In this document: one piece after another, positions 289-47,850 of the stretch
How positions within the stretch are numbered: position 1 is the first letter of the stretch
Layout of the letters: every line of letters begins with the position of its first letter
Assembly: GCA_003584625.1 (NCBI GenBank)
Contig: AP017647.1
Coordinates: forward strand, 435,501-499,500
Direction: 5' to 3'
Origin: Methanothermobacter sp. MT-2
GTDB taxonomy: Archaea > Methanobacteriota > Methanobacteria > Methanobacteriales > DSM-23052
Length of the DNA stretch: 64,000 nt
Made by a program: the position numbers and the translations under genes
Notes under the pieces: generated by a model
The model's database searches: none
What the model was told of the DNA's origin: nothing
The model's input: only the letters and a program-made list of their open reading frames with translations

Positions 289-780
289 ATGGATAGGGGG
301 CAGATAACAGGTGAATATCTTCTTATTCTAGGTTTTATCATCCCAACGATCCTCCTGTTATCATATTCTATAAGTGATAATCTGGAATTGGAGATGGCTA
401 TTGCAGCTGCAAAGGATGGTGCCATCAGAGGAGCTGACACAAATGAACTTGCAATCTACCCCAAAGATGCATACCAAGAATATGAGAACAGGAAAGAAGT
501 GCTCCTGCAACCCTCTTCTATCCAAATCATCAAATTAGAGACTGTAAATGAAGGTTATAATGAAACTTATGGAAAATATAAGATTAGATTGATAGTATAT
601 GCCCATCTAGAAAGGGAAATCCCAGATGATTGTAAAGATTCCCTGGGAGATAGGATAAATTATAATATCAGGAGAAATATTTGTATAACATTCAAAACAG
701 AAAACATTACTAATGATTTTTACAATCCAGCATTCTCATATAACTACATGTTCACAACATCCGATGTTAGATGGATATAA
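289..780 (+). CDS. Class III signal peptide (archaeal pilin-like) protein
   Basis: A 163-residue protein with a short charged N-terminus followed at residues 5-10 by QITGEY, matching the Q-x-S/T-x-E-Y/F class III signal that the archaeal prepilin peptidase EppA cleaves before the Q. A single hydrophobic helix (about residues 11-30) follows, as in pilins, then a roughly 130-residue mixed domain with two cysteines (around Cys-Lys-Asp and Ile-Cys-Ile) that could form a disulfide. It starts directly after the stop of the upstream gene. Expected role: minor pilin or surface-filament subunit; the exact filament is not known from sequence. Confidence 0.8.
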   Translation: MDRGQITGEYLLILGFIIPTILLLSYSISDNLELEMAIAAAKDGAIRGADTNELAIYPKDAYQEYENRKEVLLQPSSIQIIKLETVNEGYNETYGKYKIRLIVYAHLEREIPDDCKDSLGDRINYNIRRNICITFKTENITNDFYNPAFSYNYMFTTSDVRWI

Positions 781-858: not shown

Positions 859-869
859 TTTTTATATAT
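859..869 (+). promoter_or_regulatory. TATA-box promoter of the Roadblock/GTPase operon
   Basis: A strong archaeal TATA element (TTTATATATT, 861-870) lies in a 130-base gap after the pilin-like gene. Initiation about 25 bases downstream (near 890) leaves a short leader containing GGGTGG at 902-907, ending 5 bases before the ATG at 913. This marks the start of the operon running to 4746. Confidence 0.6.
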
Positions 870-912
870 TAGAGTATAATAATTGAATAGGTAAAATTTA
901 TTGGGTGGATCC

Positions 913-1290
913 ATGACCAAAACAAAAAAGGAAAAACTAGATGATGTTCTTTCAGCGTTTATGCAAGTGGGGCAGATACGAGCGTGTGGAATCGTATCCA
1001 AGGAAGGCCTACTTATCAATGCACGCACACCCCCAGATGTTGACGCAAGGATATTCTCAGCCTTATGTTCCACTATCATGGGAGCCGCCGAGGCAGCCTC
1101 TGGCCAGATGAATACTGGTACGGTGAATGAGATCACCGTAAGAACCGAGAAGGGTATAATAATCCTAAAACCTGCAGGAGAAAAGGCCATATTCACAGCA
1201 CTCGCAGAACCAGACGCTCACTTAGGACTTTTACTCGTTGAAATGGAAACTAGGGCAGAACAGGTGAAAGAAATCCTCAAGGAGATGTGA
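913..1290 (+). CDS. Roadblock/LC7 domain protein
   Basis: A 125-residue single-domain protein. The pattern (N-terminal helix, then a strand containing ACGIVSKEG, a long helix with [15 protein letters not shown], and strands with [14 protein letters not shown]) is that of the Roadblock/LC7 fold, known to bind and regulate Ras-like/MglA-type GTPases. The ATG at 913 is preferred over the upstream TTG at 901 because the GGTGG motif lies 5 bases before it. It is first gene of an operon whose second gene encodes a small GTPase domain, so it is a likely GTPase-activating or scaffold partner. The partnership is inferred from family and position. Confidence 0.85.
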
Positions 1291-1292
1291 AG

Positions 1293-2468
1293 ATGAAGAG
1301 GACCTACATCCCCAAACTCGATGATATACTTGGTGGGGGTATAGTCGATAACGCTTCTGTCATGTTTTCTGCTGTCCCTGGTGTGGATTGTGAGGCCTTC
1401 GGTTACCAGATGCTATATGGGCGATTAAAAGAAGGGGACAAAGGTTTCATATTCACGAATGTGGCCGAACCTGAAACTATAACCTATGAATTCAACTCCT
1501 ATGGTTGGGATCTTGAAAAATTTCTTGAAAGTGGGGATGCATTCTTTGTTGATGGAAGTTCACCATTCATGGGATTACCATCAACTGCAAGATATTCCGT
1601 TGATGATTATTCAAAAATAGAAGAGATCGTACTAGAAGCTATAAGTGATGTGCCAGGTGGTATAGGTGTTATAAATAACCTCTCAACCCTAATAGATTAT
1701 CTTGGGGAAGATGAGACCATAAACATTATAAAAAAATGGAACCTATATAGTAGGAGGTATAATACAAACCTTATTTACCTATTCACCAAATGGGATTATA
1801 CTCCTAGCCTAGTGCAAAATCTTAAAAAGATCATGGATTGTGTAGTTGAAATTAGGACAATAGAGGAAAGGGTTATAATAGGCCAGGGTTTCATGGTGGC
1901 TCATTCTTCCTGGTCGAAACCATCAAAGACCATGGTCTTATTCTTTGTAGTGCAACCAGGTGGCGTTAAAGTATACATACCCAAGATATTAGTCACAGGC
2001 CCATATAATGCAGGTAAGTCAACTTTCGTCAAAAAGATATCGAAGAGGGCTGTTTCGGTTGATAGAAAGGCTTTATCAGCTTTCCCCACTACGATAGCCT
2101 TGGATATAGGACACCTCGAATATAAGGGTTTTATAGCGGATGTGTTCGGCACACCCGGCCAGGAGCGATTCGACCTACTATTGGATGTTCTAGGGAGAGA
2201 ATCGGTCGGAGCTTTTATAATTGTTGACTCAACAGCCCCGCAGACATTTGCAAGGGCTAAGGAGATGATAAGGAAGACCAGGGCGGAGGCCATACCGAAG
2301 GTTTTAGTTGCGAATAAACAGGATCTGCCAGGGGCGCTTTCGCCGGAAGAAATACGTGAAAAGATGAAGCTTGGTGAAGAGGTACCTATCATACCAGCCA
2401 TAGTAACTGAGGGGAAAGGGGTTACTGATGCTTTGGATGCTCTTTTAGGATTGCTTTATGGTGATTGA
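1293..2468 (+). CDS. Degenerate RecA/KaiC-like domain fused to small Arf/Ras-like GTPase
   Basis: A 391-residue two-domain protein. Residues 1 to about 220 follow the RAD55/KaiC layout ([11 protein letters not shown] start, then a core) but the expected Walker A is replaced by [11 protein letters not shown], so nucleotide binding there is probably lost. Residues from about 230 form a GTPase: G1 GPYNAGKST (about 236), G3 [11 protein letters not shown] (about 283), G4 NKQD (about 341). The ATG at 1293 has AAGGAG eight bases upstream; a GTG at 1287 overlapping the previous stop is possible. It sits between a Roadblock gene and two RecA-like genes, suggesting one signalling complex. Confidence 0.85.
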
Positions 2469-3167
2469 ATGATTGTAAGGATTTCATCGGGAATTCCTGG
2501 TCTAGATAAACTTATAGGAGGAGGGGGAGGTTCTTTAGCAGAGAATACTGTTACACTCATCTATGGTCCTCCTAAGGTTGGTAAATCTATTTTTTCTTAC
2601 CAATTTGCATATGAGGGTCTTGTTAATGATGAGCCATGCCTTTATGTTAGTACAGATTATGGTTTGAAGGATCTGGAAAGGAATGTGGCCAATTTTGGTT
2701 GGAAGGTTGAGGAATATGTTGGAAGTGAAAATTTTTATCTTATAGATGCGATATCAACAATTTCAGGCGTGGAAGTTAGTAGTACATTAAATTATTTTCC
2801 ATCCTCTGTATATAATCCTACAGATATCATGGTAAAATTGGGTGTGGCTATTCGTCAGATAAAATCAAAGTCGCCCCGTTTCAGATCTGTTCTCGATTCT
2901 TTAACAACACTTATGGCATTTAATGACGAGCTTTTGGTTGTAAGGGTGCTCACAATATATATCATGCGTATAAAAGAGAGTGGAGGGACGGCCATTGTAA
3001 CCTACACGGAAGGATCTGCCGATTCCAAAGTTGAAAACATGTTAAAGGCCATAGTAGATAATATAATTCACCTTGATGGGGAGAACCTCACAGTAGAGGC
3101 TATGGTTGGAAGTGGTAAGCTAAAAGCGCATTATAATATAACTTCCAGTGGCATAGTAGTTGATTGA
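2469..3167 (+). CDS. RAD55/KaiC-like RecA superfamily ATPase
   Basis: 232 residues. It opens with the family signature SGIPGLDKLIGGG, then Walker A GPPKVGKS at residues 33-40 and a Walker B-like hydrophobic strand ending SVLDSLTT near residue 140. Length and order match stand-alone archaeal RAD55/KaiC-domain ATPases, which are used in signalling or DNA-repair accessory roles rather than strand exchange. The ATG follows the upstream stop with no gap. It is a close paralogue of the next gene (shared GPPKVGKS, similar spacing), pointing to a tandem duplication. Confidence 0.85.
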   Translation: MIVRISSGIPGLDKLIGGGGGSLAENTVTLIYGPPKVGKSIFSYQFAYEGLVNDEPCLYVSTDYGLKDLERNVANFGWKVEEYVGSENFYLIDAISTISGVEVSSTLNYFPSSVYNPTDIMVKLGVAIRQIKSKSPRFRSVLDSLTTLMAFNDELLVVRVLTIYIMRIKESGGTAIVTYTEGSADSKVENMLKAIVDNIIHLDGENLTVEAMVGSGKLKAHYNITSSGIVVD

Positions 3168-3181
3168 TCTGTGTGATGTTC

Positions 3182-3865
3182 ATGAAAAATAATTCTGATA
3201 TAACAAATCTTGGGGATCTCCTTGGAGATATAGAACCTGGGAAAATTGTACTACTCTATGGCCCTCCTAAGGTGGGTAAATCCATATTCTGTTACCAGTT
3301 TTTGTATTCTGGTCTTAAGGGTGGAGAACCATGTTTGTATATAGCGGCTGATTATGGTTTAAGGCAACTTGAGCAGAGGATGATGGAGTTTAATTGGTTT
3401 TTGCAACCATATATTCAAAGTGGTGAAGTTTACATAATAGATATTTTAACCCGTTTGGCAGGTGTTAAGATTGGGGATTCAAATGCTGTGAAGTTTTCAT
3501 CAGTTCAAAACCTTGCAGATCTTATGGTTAAGGTGGGTGTGGGGACGCGTTCATTATTCCGGAAATCATCCAAGTTCAGAGCGGTTCTAGATTCACTCAC
3601 AATGATCTTTGCATTTAACCCGCCAAACCTTGTATTGAGGCTGATGAAAGCTTATAAGAATCGTGTAAGTGAAGCAAATGGTATAGGGCTTGTGGTGCAT
3701 ACAACAGGGACTGTTGAACCACAATTTGAAACATCTTTGATGGAATTGGCTGATTTTAAGATATGTTTTGATGGAAAGAGCATCCAAGTAGAATCCTCCG
3801 CAGGTAAAAAATCGGCACAATACACCATAACAGACGAGGGGATCAAGTGTTGGGGAATAGAATGA
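3182..3865 (+). CDS. RAD55/KaiC-like ATPase, second paralogue
   Basis: 227 residues from the ATG at 3182, chosen because GTGAT lies just upstream; an ATG at 3176 or a TTG at 3164 overlapping the previous stop are alternatives. Walker A is again GPPKVGKS (about residues 23-30) and the Walker B-like strand is AVLDSLTM. It lacks the SGIPGLDKLI opening of its neighbour, having a shorter TNLGDLLGDIEPGK start. Probably a subunit of the same signalling complex as the gene before it; function inferred from family and context only. Confidence 0.8.
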   Translation: MKNNSDITNLGDLLGDIEPGKIVLLYGPPKVGKSIFCYQFLYSGLKGGEPCLYIAADYGLRQLEQRMMEFNWFLQPYIQSGEVYIIDILTRLAGVKIGDSNAVKFSSVQNLADLMVKVGVGTRSLFRKSSKFRAVLDSLTMIFAFNPPNLVLRLMKAYKNRVSEANGIGLVVHTTGTVEPQFETSLMELADFKICFDGKSIQVESSAGKKSAQYTITDEGIKCWGIE

Positions 3866-4746
3866 TAATGATCTTGGGTTTATTCGATATATTTGAAAGG
3901 GGGAGGTCATTAGAGGATTATATCCACCGTCTCCAGGAATTAAGGGAGGAGGAGTTCGATATTTTAATGTCCATAGCAGGATATTATCTTGATGAAGGTA
4001 AACATGAGAAGGCCATGGAATATCTTGAAAAAGCGATTAAAGTAGCTGTTGAAATGGATGATAAGGAACTTGAAGCCCTTGTACTTGATTCTATGGGTGA
4101 TGTTTACCTGGATAAAAGGGAGATAGATGTAGCGCTCGAATATTTCAAGGAAGCCTTTAAACTTTATTCTTCAATCAAATCACCCCACAGAGACGAAATG
4201 AAGGATAAGATAAGTGAAGTTGAGAGGATGAAAGAAGCTATAGAGATGGCTGAATTACGTAAAAAACTTGAAGAAACCCCTAAGAGTCCGGAAGTGGGAA
4301 GATTTGAAGTTGACATTGAAGATATACTCCCTAAATTGAAGAAATTAGTCAGACATTTAGAAAATGTTTCATTATATGAACCTTCCCTTGAGAGCACATT
4401 TGAAGAGTTGAAAGAAGCCCTTAACATAGCCAGTACAATTAATGATAAGATGGGTGAAGGTTCTCTACTAATACTCCTCGGAACCCATTTATTCGAAAAT
4501 GAAGATTATGACGGGGCTTTCAACTATTTTACACGGGCCAAGGAAATATTCAGCAAAATTGAAGATAAAAAATCGCTTGGGACTGTGAATGTTCTACTAG
4601 GCCTCATACATTTCATTAGAGGTGATGAAAAAGAGGCTTTGGAGAATTTTAAAAAAGCAATCGAATTATTCAAAGGAGAAAATGATTCTAAGGCTTCTGA
4701 GCTTACCATAGACATTTGCAGATCATTATATGGGGTCGAGGGGTAA
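3862..4746 (+). CDS. Tetratricopeptide repeat (TPR) protein
   Basis: 294 residues, largely helical. TPR-like pairs are visible near residues 30-120 (spacing IAGYYLDEGKHEKAMEYLEKA, then DSMGDVYLDKREIDVALEYF) and again near 195-290 (GTHLFENEDYDGAFNYFTRA, GLIHFIRGDEKEALENFKKA), separated by a charged linker rich in Glu and Lys. The ATG at 3862 overlaps the previous stop as ATGA, indicating translational coupling; the GTG at 3847 and ATG at 3868 are alternatives. As last gene of the Roadblock/GTPase/RecA operon it is a plausible scaffold. Its 3' end overlaps the convergent gene by 21 bases. Confidence 0.85.
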   Translation: MIMILGLFDIFERGRSLEDYIHRLQELREEEFDILMSIAGYYLDEGKHEKAMEYLEKAIKVAVEMDDKELEALVLDSMGDVYLDKREIDVALEYFKEAFKLYSSIKSPHRDEMKDKISEVERMKEAIEMAELRKKLEETPKSPEVGRFEVDIEDILPKLKKLVRHLENVSLYEPSLESTFEELKEALNIASTINDKMGEGSLLILLGTHLFENEDYDGAFNYFTRAKEIFSKIEDKKSLGTVNVLLGLIHFIRGDEKEALENFKKAIELFKGENDSKASELTIDICRSLYGVEG

Positions 4747-5688
4747 TATAAAGGCTAATAGTATCCCAAGGGAACCGAATAGTATTCCTATAAACCATAC
4801 AATGAGTACAACATGTTTTTCTTTCATAGGCCTTCTTAGTATCCATCTTATAAGAGAATTGAAACCTTCTGGGGGAGCTACAAGTTTACCATCCTCTGTC
4901 ACTTTGGTCGGGGCATGCTTATGTCTTTCCATGACACCTGCACTATAAAACTTTAGGAGAGAATCTATTATATTAGGTAATAACACGATGAATGCTATGC
5001 TTTTCACACGGCCTATGAATGCCACGGCTGCTATACATGCACCTATTATAAGCGTCCCAACATCTCCTGGGAATACACGTGAAGGATAACGATTATATAT
5101 TAAGAAGGCTAGTAGTGATCCTAACATTGTCATTGTGATAAGTGAAACATCATATTTTCCCATTATTATACAGGATGCTGTGAGGGAGATCATTGCTATG
5201 GATCCGAGTCCTGATTCGATCCCATTCAAGCCTGCTAGCATGTTGGTAAGGTTTGAGGCGATTGAAACTGCTATTGGCATGCTTATAAGGTAGAGTATCC
5301 CTACGTTGGGTGGTGCCACCCATATAAGTGGGAGTCCTGCTAGGAATAGGAGGAAAAGTTTTTCCTTTGATGATAGTCTTACAAGGTCGTCTATCATACC
5401 TACTACACCTACAAGTAGGATGACTAGTAGGGTTACCATGAGTTCATAGTGGAGTTTTGGGAATGTGCAGATGGCTATGAACATTCCTATTATGAAACCG
5501 AAAAGTATGCCGATTCCACCCATCTCTGCGACTATTGGCTTGGAGAGCTTATGCAAATCTTTTCCAACTAGGTTAGCATTTCTCAGTTTGTTTATTAATC
5601 TTGGCATTACAAGGTAAGTTGATGAAAATGCTATGGTAAAACAGATGATAGAGACTGTTAATATGTTGTTAAATTCGGCTGTTAACAT
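4726..5688 (-). CDS. MraY/WecA-family glycosyl-1-phosphate transferase (GT4)
   Basis: A 320-residue polytopic membrane protein with about ten hydrophobic segments. It has the family's catalytic landmarks: GMIDDL in the first cytoplasmic loop (the DD pair), NLTNMLAGLNGIESG in the middle and FPGDVGTL further on, plus a His-rich loop ERHKHAPT near the C-terminus. Family members move a sugar-1-phosphate from a UDP-sugar to a polyprenyl phosphate. In archaea this is the first step of N-glycan (AglH-type) or wall-precursor assembly. The exact sugar cannot be read from sequence. It follows the HTH gene by 4 bases. Confidence 0.85.
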   Translation of the reverse strand: MLTAEFNNILTVSIICFTIAFSSTYLVMPRLINKLRNANLVGKDLHKLSKPIVAEMGGIGILFGFIIGMFIAICTFPKLHYELMVTLLVILLVGVVGMIDDLVRLSSKEKLFLLFLAGLPLIWVAPPNVGILYLISMPIAVSIASNLTNMLAGLNGIESGLGSIAMISLTASCIIMGKYDVSLITMTMLGSLLAFLIYNRYPSRVFPGDVGTLIIGACIAAVAFIGRVKSIAFIVLLPNIIDSLLKFYSAGVMERHKHAPTKVTEDGKLVAPPEGFNSLIRWILRRPMKEKHVVLIVWFIGILFGSLGILLAFILPLDPI

Positions 5689-46127: not shown

Positions 46128-47411
46128 ATGAAACTTAAAATCCTAAAATCCCCCAGAATCCATGGTATAGTGGACGCGCCACCATCCAAAAGCTACACGC
46201 ACAGAAGCGTTATCATAGCCTCACTCGCCAAAGGCAAATCCACACTACACAACCCACTAAAAGCAGAAGACACAATAGCATCAGCTGATGCATGCAAAAA
46301 ACTCGGGGCCAATATAAAAGAAAAACCAAAAAAATGGATAATAAGAGGAGTAAATGGACACCCAAAAACACCAGATGATGTTTTAGATCTTAAAAATTCT
46401 GGCACGAGCCTGCGCATACTAACCTCAGTAGCCGGATTAGCAGAACATTACACTATCCTTACAGGTGACAGTTCACTTCGTTCACGTCCAATGCAAGATC
46501 TTATCAACGCCCTAAAACCGCTTGGAGTTGAAGTCATATCATCCAGGATGAATGGCAGACCCCCAATCATAGTAAAAGGCGGGTTCAAAGGCGGTAAAAC
46601 AAGCATATCTGGTAGTGTGAGCTCACAATTCATATCCTCCATACTTATAGCAGCACCATTATCCTCTGAGGGGGTTGAACTTAAAATAGAAGGCGAATTC
46701 ATCTCAAAACCCTACGTTGACATGACAATAGATGTCATGGAAAAATTCAATGCAAAAACAGAATTCGACAAAAAAAAGAAAACATTCCATATCCAACCCC
46801 AAAAATATACTAGCAGAGATTATAATATAGAAGGTGACTATTCCTCAGCATCATACCTCCTAGGCGCCGCCGCTGTTACAGGCGGCGAACTCACAATCAA
46901 AAACCTTCCAAGAGACTCCAAACAAGGCGATAAACTCATACTAGACATACTCGAAGACATGGGCGCTAAAATCCGCAGAAAACCAGAAAAGGTTACAATA
47001 GAAAGTGATGGCAGACTACAAGGAATCCAAGTCAACCTATCTGACACACCAGACCTCCTACCCACAGTCGCAGTCCTAGGAGCCCTAGCAAAAGGCACCA
47101 CAATAATAGAAGGGGTTGAACACGCCCGCTTCAAGGAAACTGACAGGATAAAAACCTGCACAATGGAACTTTCACGCCTAGGCATCCCAGTAAAAGAAAA
47201 AAAAGATGGTATGATCATAAAAGGAGGCCAAATAAAAGGAAATACCATATACTCACATGGTGACCATCGTCTTGTCATGGCATTCAGCCTCATAGGCCTA
47301 AAAACAGGAATACAAATAGAAGATGCAGAAGCCTATAAAGTATCATTCCCAGGGTTCCTTGAAGCTTTTAAACGTCTCGGTTGCAAATTAGAGGTAGATG
47401 AAAATGGGTAA
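46128..47411 (+). CDS. aroA: 3-phosphoshikimate 1-carboxyvinyltransferase (EPSP synthase)
   Basis: 427 residues. Joins PEP and shikimate-3-phosphate in aromatic amino-acid synthesis. Conserved segments: [17 protein letters not shown] (phosphate-binding Lys and Arg), [53 protein letters not shown] and [12 protein letters not shown] with [13 protein letters not shown]. Length is normal. It overlaps the following GTPase gene by eight bases. Confidence 0.97.
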
Positions 47412-47850
47412 AAAGATTGTTATATTCGGAGATTATGACTCAGGGAAGACAACAACACTCGAAAAACTCTCTGAAAAGATAACAAAAGTAGAATACAAAG
47501 GGATCACAGTAGCCCTAGACTATGGTAACCTCACCTTGGATGGTGAAAAAATACACCTCTTCGCCACACCAGGCCATGAAAGATTCAAATTCATGTTAAA
47601 GATAATAGCAGCGGGCTTAGACGGGGCTATAATAGTAGTGGACAACACCAGAGGCATAACACCCGCAGAAGAGCGGATAATGGACTCACTGGAAAAGCGG
47701 AACATACCATATGTTATATTCGCCAATAAACAAGACTTGAACGATTCCACCCTCAAAACCAACAGGGAAACCGAAGTCGTCCCCACCATCGCAACCAATG
47801 GAATAGGACTAGTCAAAGGCCTTAAAATACTCCTGGGAAAATTCCAATGA
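47404..47850 (+). CDS. Small Ras/Arf-like GTPase
   Basis: 148 residues, a single G domain: G1 GDYDSGKTT (residues 7-15), G3 [12 protein letters not shown]4 ANKQD, and a G5-like TIATNG. It resembles the GTPase half of the protein at 1293-2468. The ATG at 47404 has GAGGT eight bases upstream; the earlier ATG at 47398 is too close. It lies between aroA and nth, overlapping both, so it is probably co-translated; partner unknown. Confidence 0.88.

Follow-up and report, generated by a model that had tools for sequence, protein, structure and literature searches.

Results

Composition of the locus

The window, i.e. the whole analysed stretch of 64,000 nucleotides from Methanothermobacter sp. MT-2, carries five co-directional genes on the forward strand. 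The row opens with a gene for a Roadblock/LC7 protein of 125 aa (913–1290; Pfam PF03259, Robl_LC7, 4.7e-23, 81 bits against a cut-off of 23), followed by a gene for a fusion protein of 391 aa (1293–2468; Pfam KaiC 8.6e-17, Arf/Ras 4.4e-12), which comprises a “pseudo-KaiC” domain (aa 1–228) and an MglA-type GTPase (aa 229–391). Two KaiC-like genes come next: the single-domain kai1 (2469–3167; Pfam KaiC 2.7e-32) and its paralogue kai2 (about 3173–3865; Pfam KaiC 3.1e-19), the start of which is uncertain (3164, 3173, 3176 or 3182). The row is closed by a gene for a TPR protein of 299 aa (3847–4746; Pfam TPR 4.9e-23). The gaps between the genes are 2, 0 and 5 bp, and the last two genes overlap by 19 bp. 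ORF calls and Pfam searches confirmed the original prediction in the positions of the reading frames, their tight spacing and their domain content; the five-gene cluster is real and its coordinates had been given correctly.

A predicted TATA-like element, TTTATATAT (861–869, forward strand), was recognised by eye about 45 bp 5' of the Roadblock start, and two congeneric sister genomes have a similar box. A predicted RBS-like GGGTGG (903–908, forward strand), also picked out by eye, precedes the ATG at 913. On the right, a convergent glycosyltransferase-4 (MraY/WecA-like) gene (4726–5688, reverse strand) forms the fixed boundary of the module. The five genes are probably co-transcribed, while pil2, located upstream, probably represents a separate transcription unit.

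The pil2 gene (289–780, forward strand) encodes a minor-pilin-like protein with an N terminus resembling a class III signal peptide (RGQITGEYLLIL...); its partner pil1 starts upstream of the window and ends at position 288. PF04021 was detected in five of 13 pil2 homologues (best value 0.0011) and is absent from the window protein itself. The AF2 model of pil2 (pLDDT 80) has one 48-residue N-terminal helix, and its fold gave no match in the PDB, solved pilins included. Judged from the sequence, the identity of this pair as pilin-like is plausible.

Roadblock protein and GTPase fusion

Relatives of this protein in the PDB include CvnB5 (3leq). In the Roadblock protein itself, the Glu31-Gly32 pair is invariant and stands in place of the Asp-Gly pair carried by the MglBs that are coupled to MglA groups 2–5 (PMC4316618). 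This is why GAP action should not be assumed for this protein.

In the GTPase half of the fusion, G1 (GPYNAGKS, 1998–2021) and G3 (GTPGQ, 2148–2162; both forward strand) are well preserved: all orthologues have G1 as GPYN(A/S)GKS and G4 as NKQD, G3 is invariant, and G2 reads PTTIA, with Thr where MglA group 1 has Arg. GTPGQ is the G3 motif of MglA groups 2–5, and group 1 is the one with Arg in G2 (PMC4316618). By its G1, G2, G3 and G4 motifs, the fused GTPase matches MglA groups 2–5, and since G1, G3 and G4 are kept, it should bind GTP. The fusion is 391–392 aa long in every carrier, above the single-domain limit of 240 aa for MglA.

The other half of the fusion has a dead Walker A motif (1377–1400, forward strand), PGVDCEAF against PGTGKTVF of KaiC. 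In place of GK(S/T), nearly all orthologues have D-x-E and one has N-x-E, with GK(S/T) retained in none; the Walker B Asp is absent in every copy, with Asn in the orthologues. Despite these losses, the domain is 64–84% identical among orthologues. The KaiC/RecA fold is indicated by Foldseek, in which the AF2 model of the N-terminal domain matches PH0284/KaiC (E about 1e-12; TM 0.69 against 2dr3, normalised to 2dr3); this model is good for much of the KaiC half only, the GTPase half being of low confidence and the domain packing unreadable. Judged from these motifs, the RecA-like half is a pseudo-ATPase whose ATP-binding motifs are gone. The predicted fusion of a GTPase to a RecA-like domain was borne out with regard to the fusion itself and the KaiC-like fold, but not to the ATPase site, as both Walker motifs are lost.

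KaiC-like proteins

The Walker motifs are intact in kai1 (Walker A GPPKVGKS, Walker B VLDSLT) and in kai2, and the catalytic Glu-Glu of KaiC is replaced by Asp-Tyr (as in kai1) or Glu-Tyr. Both proteins had been labelled RAD55-like, and their RecA fold would suit a role in DNA repair or recombination. However, RadB models reach at most 28.7 bits against cut-offs of 172–278, the best KaiC models score 54–84 bits, and the operon members include no repair genes. On these profile scores the RAD55/RadB identity was rejected, and a repair role is extremely improbable. The NCBIfam equivalog model of ArlH gives 38.2 and 29.8 bits for kai1 and kai2 against a cut-off of 215. On profile evidence, the two proteins are kin of KaiC and ArlH. 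Having kept the ATP site but not the catalytic glutamates of KaiC, they would serve in ATP-dependent assembly or sensing rather than as motors. ArlH, itself KaiC-like, binds ATP and does not hydrolyse it (PMC8978795, PMC12024892). The earlier picture of motor-like RecA-family NTPases is not supported: one of the three domains has lost its ATP site, and in the remaining two the catalytic glutamates of KaiC are missing.

Distribution and conservation

Among 150 Methanobacteriales genomes, the module was found in 18, which belong to three families. The gene order is kept in 17 of them (the exception, G010, is devoid of kai2), and the Roadblock and fusion genes are spaced by 0–3 bp in every carrier. 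The identical order across three families, G010 excepted, excludes a chance arrangement and is not limited to close strains; the proposed tight linkage of a Roadblock gene to a following MglA-type GTPase gene is upheld. The expected conservation across methanogens held inside Methanobacteriales but not beyond, as far as tested: a phylum sample of 132 genomes (one genus beyond the order sample) contained no further full-length fusion. Plasmid-borne spread was considered and rejected, since the plasmid search returned partial matches only (none covering 80% of the protein), chiefly to the GTPase domain, in Streptomyces, Deinococcus and Thermus. We found no published work that tests the five-gene module.

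The Roadblock protein is 78–94% identical across the three families, while identity among carriers falls to about 70% for the fusion and to 35–40% for the TPR protein, the fastest-evolving of the five members. With median identities of 87–92% (Roadblock) and 71–88% (fusion) versus 65–87% for MetRS, the first two change less than MetRS and are among the slowest-evolving genes in the carriers' locus. Partial sets occur as well: genome G049 has kept kai1 and kai2, located immediately after pil2, and lost the Roadblock and fusion genes, and G010 has kept Roadblock, fusion and kai1, with kai2 deleted, pil2 truncated and the TPR gene frameshifted in the same genome. These two genomes demonstrate that parts of the module are separable.

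Co-occurring unlinked genes

A stand-alone small GTPase gene (47398–47850, forward strand; 150 aa, G3 ATPGH), whose product shares 38% identity with the GTPase domain of the fusion, is unlinked to the module yet co-occurs with it. Genes with a Roadblock domain occur in only 20 of the 150 genomes, exactly the set in which the stand-alone GTPase was detected; this set also includes the 18 carriers of the module and 17 genomes with DUF2226, a domain found in none outside. A second Roadblock gene resides in a cluster conserved in all three families, together with DUF2226/DUF4388-like, DUF1611 and minD genes and a SepF-like gene, the SepF match being weak (1.2e-5, just below the cut-off). The module had been taken as self-contained, a view that is not supported, because its presence tracks the unlinked second Roadblock gene, stand-alone GTPase and DUF2226. 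The Roadblock/GTPase genes look like one signalling network that is kept or lost together, and their co-occurrence could result from one or a few losses in the tree rather than from many independent events.

Discussion

Spatial signalling in eukaryotes and some bacteria has Roadblock proteins and Ras-like GTPases at its centre, and GTPase switches and KaiC-like proteins are both widespread in archaea. We consider it somewhat more probable than not that the module is an MglA-type GTPase switch, regulated by Roadblock and coupled to a KaiC-like nucleotide-binding assembly. In such a scheme, a Roadblock dimer would bind the GTPase and set its nucleotide state, and the dead KaiC domain would dock on a kai1/kai2 oligomer; this docking would make the switch, through its GTP state, and the oligomer, through its ATP state, responsive to each other, and the TPR protein would pass the output to a client. 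A more specific version is offered tentatively: the GTPase may be plugged into a KaiC-like ring via the dead subunit, GTP and ATP states being read in one assembly, and the Roadblock/GTPase network may be retained or lost as a whole throughout the order. Since the module lies beside the minor-pilin pair and co-occurs with a second Roadblock gene located beside sepF and minD, we propose, weakly, that the most likely client is an envelope-associated process, either the use of type IV filaments or cell polarity/division. The module offers a compact gene set with clear binding-partner predictions, and its carriers, partial carriers and clean empty sites form a natural comparison panel, which makes it a direct route to how GTPase switches and KaiC-like proteins cooperate in archaea.

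Perhaps the module serves specifically to regulate the adjacent pilin pair and its type IV filament, where ATP-bound kai1/kai2 would stimulate or gate a secretion ATPase, as ArlH on ArlI, and the GTPase would set where and when; we regard this as possible but doubtful. The pair pil1–pil2 lies directly upstream of the module in all 16 carriers with that side assembled, three Methanobacteriaceae genera (g9, g16, g18) have an extra KaiC-like gene between pil2 and the Roadblock gene, and both the position of kai1/kai2 in G049 and the joint damage to pil2, kai2 and the TPR gene in G010 are in line with such a link. Moreover, archaeal T4P loci often include KaiC-like and Roadblock proteins (PMC4858521). 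However, adjacency alone is little informative, because the MetRS–primase–HTH–GT4–pilins neighbourhood persists in much of the order; in the window genome, the module is preceded by a TATA-like element of its own, and neither a secretion ATPase gene nor a TadC gene was recognised next to the locus. In addition, pil2 occurs in 141 of the 150 genomes and a T2SSE-type ATPase scores over the cut-off in 146, most of them devoid of the module, so neither needs it, and the module was rejected as an obligatory pilus component. The suggested connection to surface filaments is thereby weakened to a positional one, although the upstream location and plausible identity of the pair stand.

A network for polarity or division sites, in which Roadblock and GTPase mark a position in the cell together with the second Roadblock, sepF, DUF2226 and minD, seems to us about as probable as filament control. 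It agrees with the composition of the second-Roadblock cluster in all three families and with the restriction of DUF2226 to Roadblock-bearing genomes, and in Myxococcus polarity is set by MglA/MglB, MglB genes being reported near PATAN-domain genes (PMC4316618). Nevertheless, the two loci are unlinked, the module itself encodes no polarity protein, the SepF assignment is weak, and most genomes of the order, evidently dividing, are without any Roadblock protein. Less probable still is a metabolic or timing sensor of the KaiC type that reports ATP/GTP status and is unconnected with surface or polarity: for three of the five proteins, the strongest similarity is to KaiC, but kai1 and kai2 have one domain each and lack the catalytic pair of KaiC, no kaiA- or kaiB-like gene was recognised among the neighbours, and known clocks do not feature a Roadblock/MglA pair.

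The switch-and-assembly reading that we favour can be compared with several known systems. MglA–MglB of bacterial polarity and CvnB–CvnD of the actinobacterial conservon likewise have a Roadblock gene beside an MglA-type GTPase gene, and they share with the module the GTPGQ motif of groups 2–5 and the relationship of CvnB5 to its Roadblock protein. Unlike them, the module has its GTPase fused to a dead KaiC domain and its partners are KaiC-like and TPR proteins instead of a histidine kinase or response regulator; its Roadblock protein has Glu-Gly instead of Asp-Gly. The stand-alone archaeal MglA of group 4 from methanogens has lineage and G1/G3/G4 motifs in common with the module GTPase; a stand-alone GTPase occurs here too, but with ATPGH as G3. 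According to the MglA survey, from which sequences longer than 240 aa were dropped, group 4 has no conserved neighbours (PMC4316618), while the fusion exceeds this length and its neighbourhood is strongly conserved. Like kai1 and kai2, ArlH of the archaellum consists of one KaiC-like domain that has an ATP site, although kai1 and kai2 fall below the ArlH model cut-off and the locus showed no recognisable archaellum genes. Inactivated KaiC homologues have reportedly been described in archaea by Makarova et al. in 2017, a study cited in PMC6393860 and PMC8978795; they share the loss of the ATPase site, and the one in the module differs in being the N-terminal half of a GTPase.

Architecture and conservation of the module

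The window (G000:C1:435501-499500) belongs to a complete 1.52-Mb genome of the order Methanobacteriales. The five frames of the module run in one direction over 913-4746; successive genes lie 2, 0 and 5 bp apart, and one pair overlaps by 19 bp. Their Pfam assignments are, in order, Roadblock, KaiC plus Arf/Ras (the fusion), KaiC (kai1), KaiC (kai2) and TPR. Ahead of the Roadblock ATG lie the TATA-like sequence TTTATATAT (861-869) and GGGTGG (903-908), which make a promoter for the module itself probable; in that case the minor-pilin-like pair upstream, pil2 (289-780) and pil1 (whose start lies before the window), would form a separate unit.

The full-length fusion occurs in 18 of 150 Methanobacteriales genomes, spread over three families, and in 17 of the 90 genomes of good quality. 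The original prediction of a self-contained signalling operon called for gene order to be kept across genomes, and it is indeed identical in all carriers of the three families except G010, which lacks kai2. Median identity to the window proteins in family f2 is 91% for Roadblock, 74% for the fusion, 67% for kai1, 46% for kai2 and 39% for TPR, compared with 67% for the neighbouring MetRS, 50% for the primase-like protein and 82% for the convergent glycosyltransferase GT4. The Roadblock–GTPase core is therefore under stronger constraint than a tRNA synthetase, and it is kai2 and the TPR gene that drift. In the tree of the fusion, families f1 and f2 come together and f3 stands apart, as would be expected under vertical inheritance. 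One genome (G078) has the module in two copies (L037 and L042).

The module search covered its own phylum and one contig scan. A published report of this operon was not found in the part of the literature that was searched; the early Roadblock paper by Koonin and Aravind, of 2000, to which PMC4316618 refers, is said to discuss prokaryotic Roadblock–GTPase gene pairs and may have touched on this locus.

Proteins of the module

The N-terminal 228 residues of the fusion are a KaiC-type domain, as indicated by the profile match, an alignment to KaiC and PH0186/PH0284, and the fold of the AF2 model (TM 0.69 on the target, 2dr3). Alignment of orthologues shows that its ATP-site motifs are lost: PGTGKT at the Walker A site of KaiC is replaced throughout by PGVD[CY]E (PGVNSE in one orthologue), and VIDS by [IVL]IN[NC] in all. 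Despite this loss, the domain is 64–84% identical among orthologues, which argues that it is retained for a role other than ATP use.

In the C-terminal domain the GTP-site motifs are present (G1 GPYN[AS]GKS, G2 PTTIA, G3 GTPGQ, G4 NKQD). MglA groups 2–5 are marked by GTPGQ at G3 and by Thr replacing the group 1 Arg (Wuichet and Sogaard-Andersen, PMC4316618). The same census left out proteins above 240 aa, and its methanogen group 4 showed no conserved gene neighbourhood, which may be why it missed the fusion.

The paralogues kai1 and kai2 possess GPPxxGK[ST] and the Walker B Asp-Ser, and the Glu-Glu position of KaiC is occupied by Asp-Tyr (Glu-Tyr in some). The KaiC-like ArlH does not hydrolyse the ATP that it binds, and it autophosphorylates (PMC8978795, PMC12024892). 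With this precedent, kai1 and kai2, which keep the ATP site without the KaiC catalytic pair, may be nucleotide-dependent assembly subunits. Their identification as ArlH or RadB themselves was ruled out, both being below the model cut-offs. Among the solved relatives of the Roadblock protein are CvnB5 and three structures that bear the name Roadblock/LC7 domain protein; Glu-Gly is invariant in its orthologues, whereas Asp-Gly is reported for the class (PMC4316618).

Co-occurring Roadblock and GTPase genes

Robl_LC7 profile matches are confined to 20 of the 150 genomes, and a stand-alone relative of the fused GTPase was found in the same 20 when genomes at least 80% complete were searched. Eighteen of these carry the module and 17 carry DUF2226, for which no match was found elsewhere among the 150, these counts being of genomes and not of events, so that few losses may underlie them. 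The other 130 are without Roadblock, stand-alone GTPase, module and DUF2226 together (lost or never possessed), an all-or-none pattern tied to the 150 genomes drawn and to profile sensitivity.

The second Roadblock gene of the window genome adjoins DUF1611, a SepF-like gene, a DUF2226/DUF4388-like gene and minD (L099:3128-5852; G000:C1:129127-131851), an arrangement that recurs in f2 and f3 carriers, the cluster being conserved in carriers of three families. The stand-alone small GTPase (window 47398-47850) lies between aroA-like and endonuclease III-like genes, and its G3 is ATPGH, with His replacing the catalytic Gln. In G071, a second module-type Roadblock (L114:7889-8266), 81% identical to that of the window, stands alone beside indolepyruvate oxidoreductase-like genes.

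Proposed working and output

We infer that Roadblock would bind the GTPase, that the dead KaiC domain would join a kai1/kai2 assembly and relay the switch state to it, and that the TPR protein may link the module to a client. Filament control, conceivable in the original prediction, is a possible output, though less likely than not: the position beside pil1/pil2 stands and a general literature link can be cited (PMC4858521), but as an obligatory partner it fails the presence/absence test, since 141 of the 150 genomes have pil2 and 146 have a T2SSE ATPase scoring over cut-off, against 18 with the module. Control of polarity or division, to which the second Roadblock locus is the one pointer, seems about as likely as filament control.

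Empty, partial and altered loci

The neighbourhood MetRS–primase-like–HTH–GT4–(module)–pil2–pil1 is kept in several module-less genomes; at the empty site of G020 the ends of pil2 and GT4 are about 25 bp apart. Sampled non-carriers fall outside the carriers in the GT4 tree, one long-branched row being of unsure place, and loss of the module inside f3 would fit this tree under an assumed root between families. In module-less G024, a short frame in the pil2–GT4 gap (L102:7531-7755) resembles, by eye, an acetyltransferase fragment.

G049 retains pil1-pil2-kai1-kai2 (L104, 1287-3372; pil2 and kai1 about 149 bp apart), with Roadblock and the fusion gone. It groups with the carriers, and its kai2 branch of 0.89 against 0.33 for kai1 suggests, in this one case from a fragmented assembly, that kai2 was released from constraint upon the loss of Roadblock and fusion. 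The decayed module of G010 (L035, 6900-10660) has intact Roadblock, fusion and kai1, a deleted kai2 and a frameshifted TPR gene, and its pil2 has lost the C terminus and reads into Roadblock.

In carriers of genera g9, g16 and g18, pil2 and Roadblock are separated by one more KaiC-like gene (L037:5667-6335, L040:10391-11068, L043:11734-12423), its Walker A ending in GKD and not GK[ST]; one of these matches DUF7504/DUF7090 of other archaea. At L045:11241-11732 lies a gene, divergent from pil1, with an over-cut-off match (6e-8) to the methyl-coenzyme M reductase operon protein C family.
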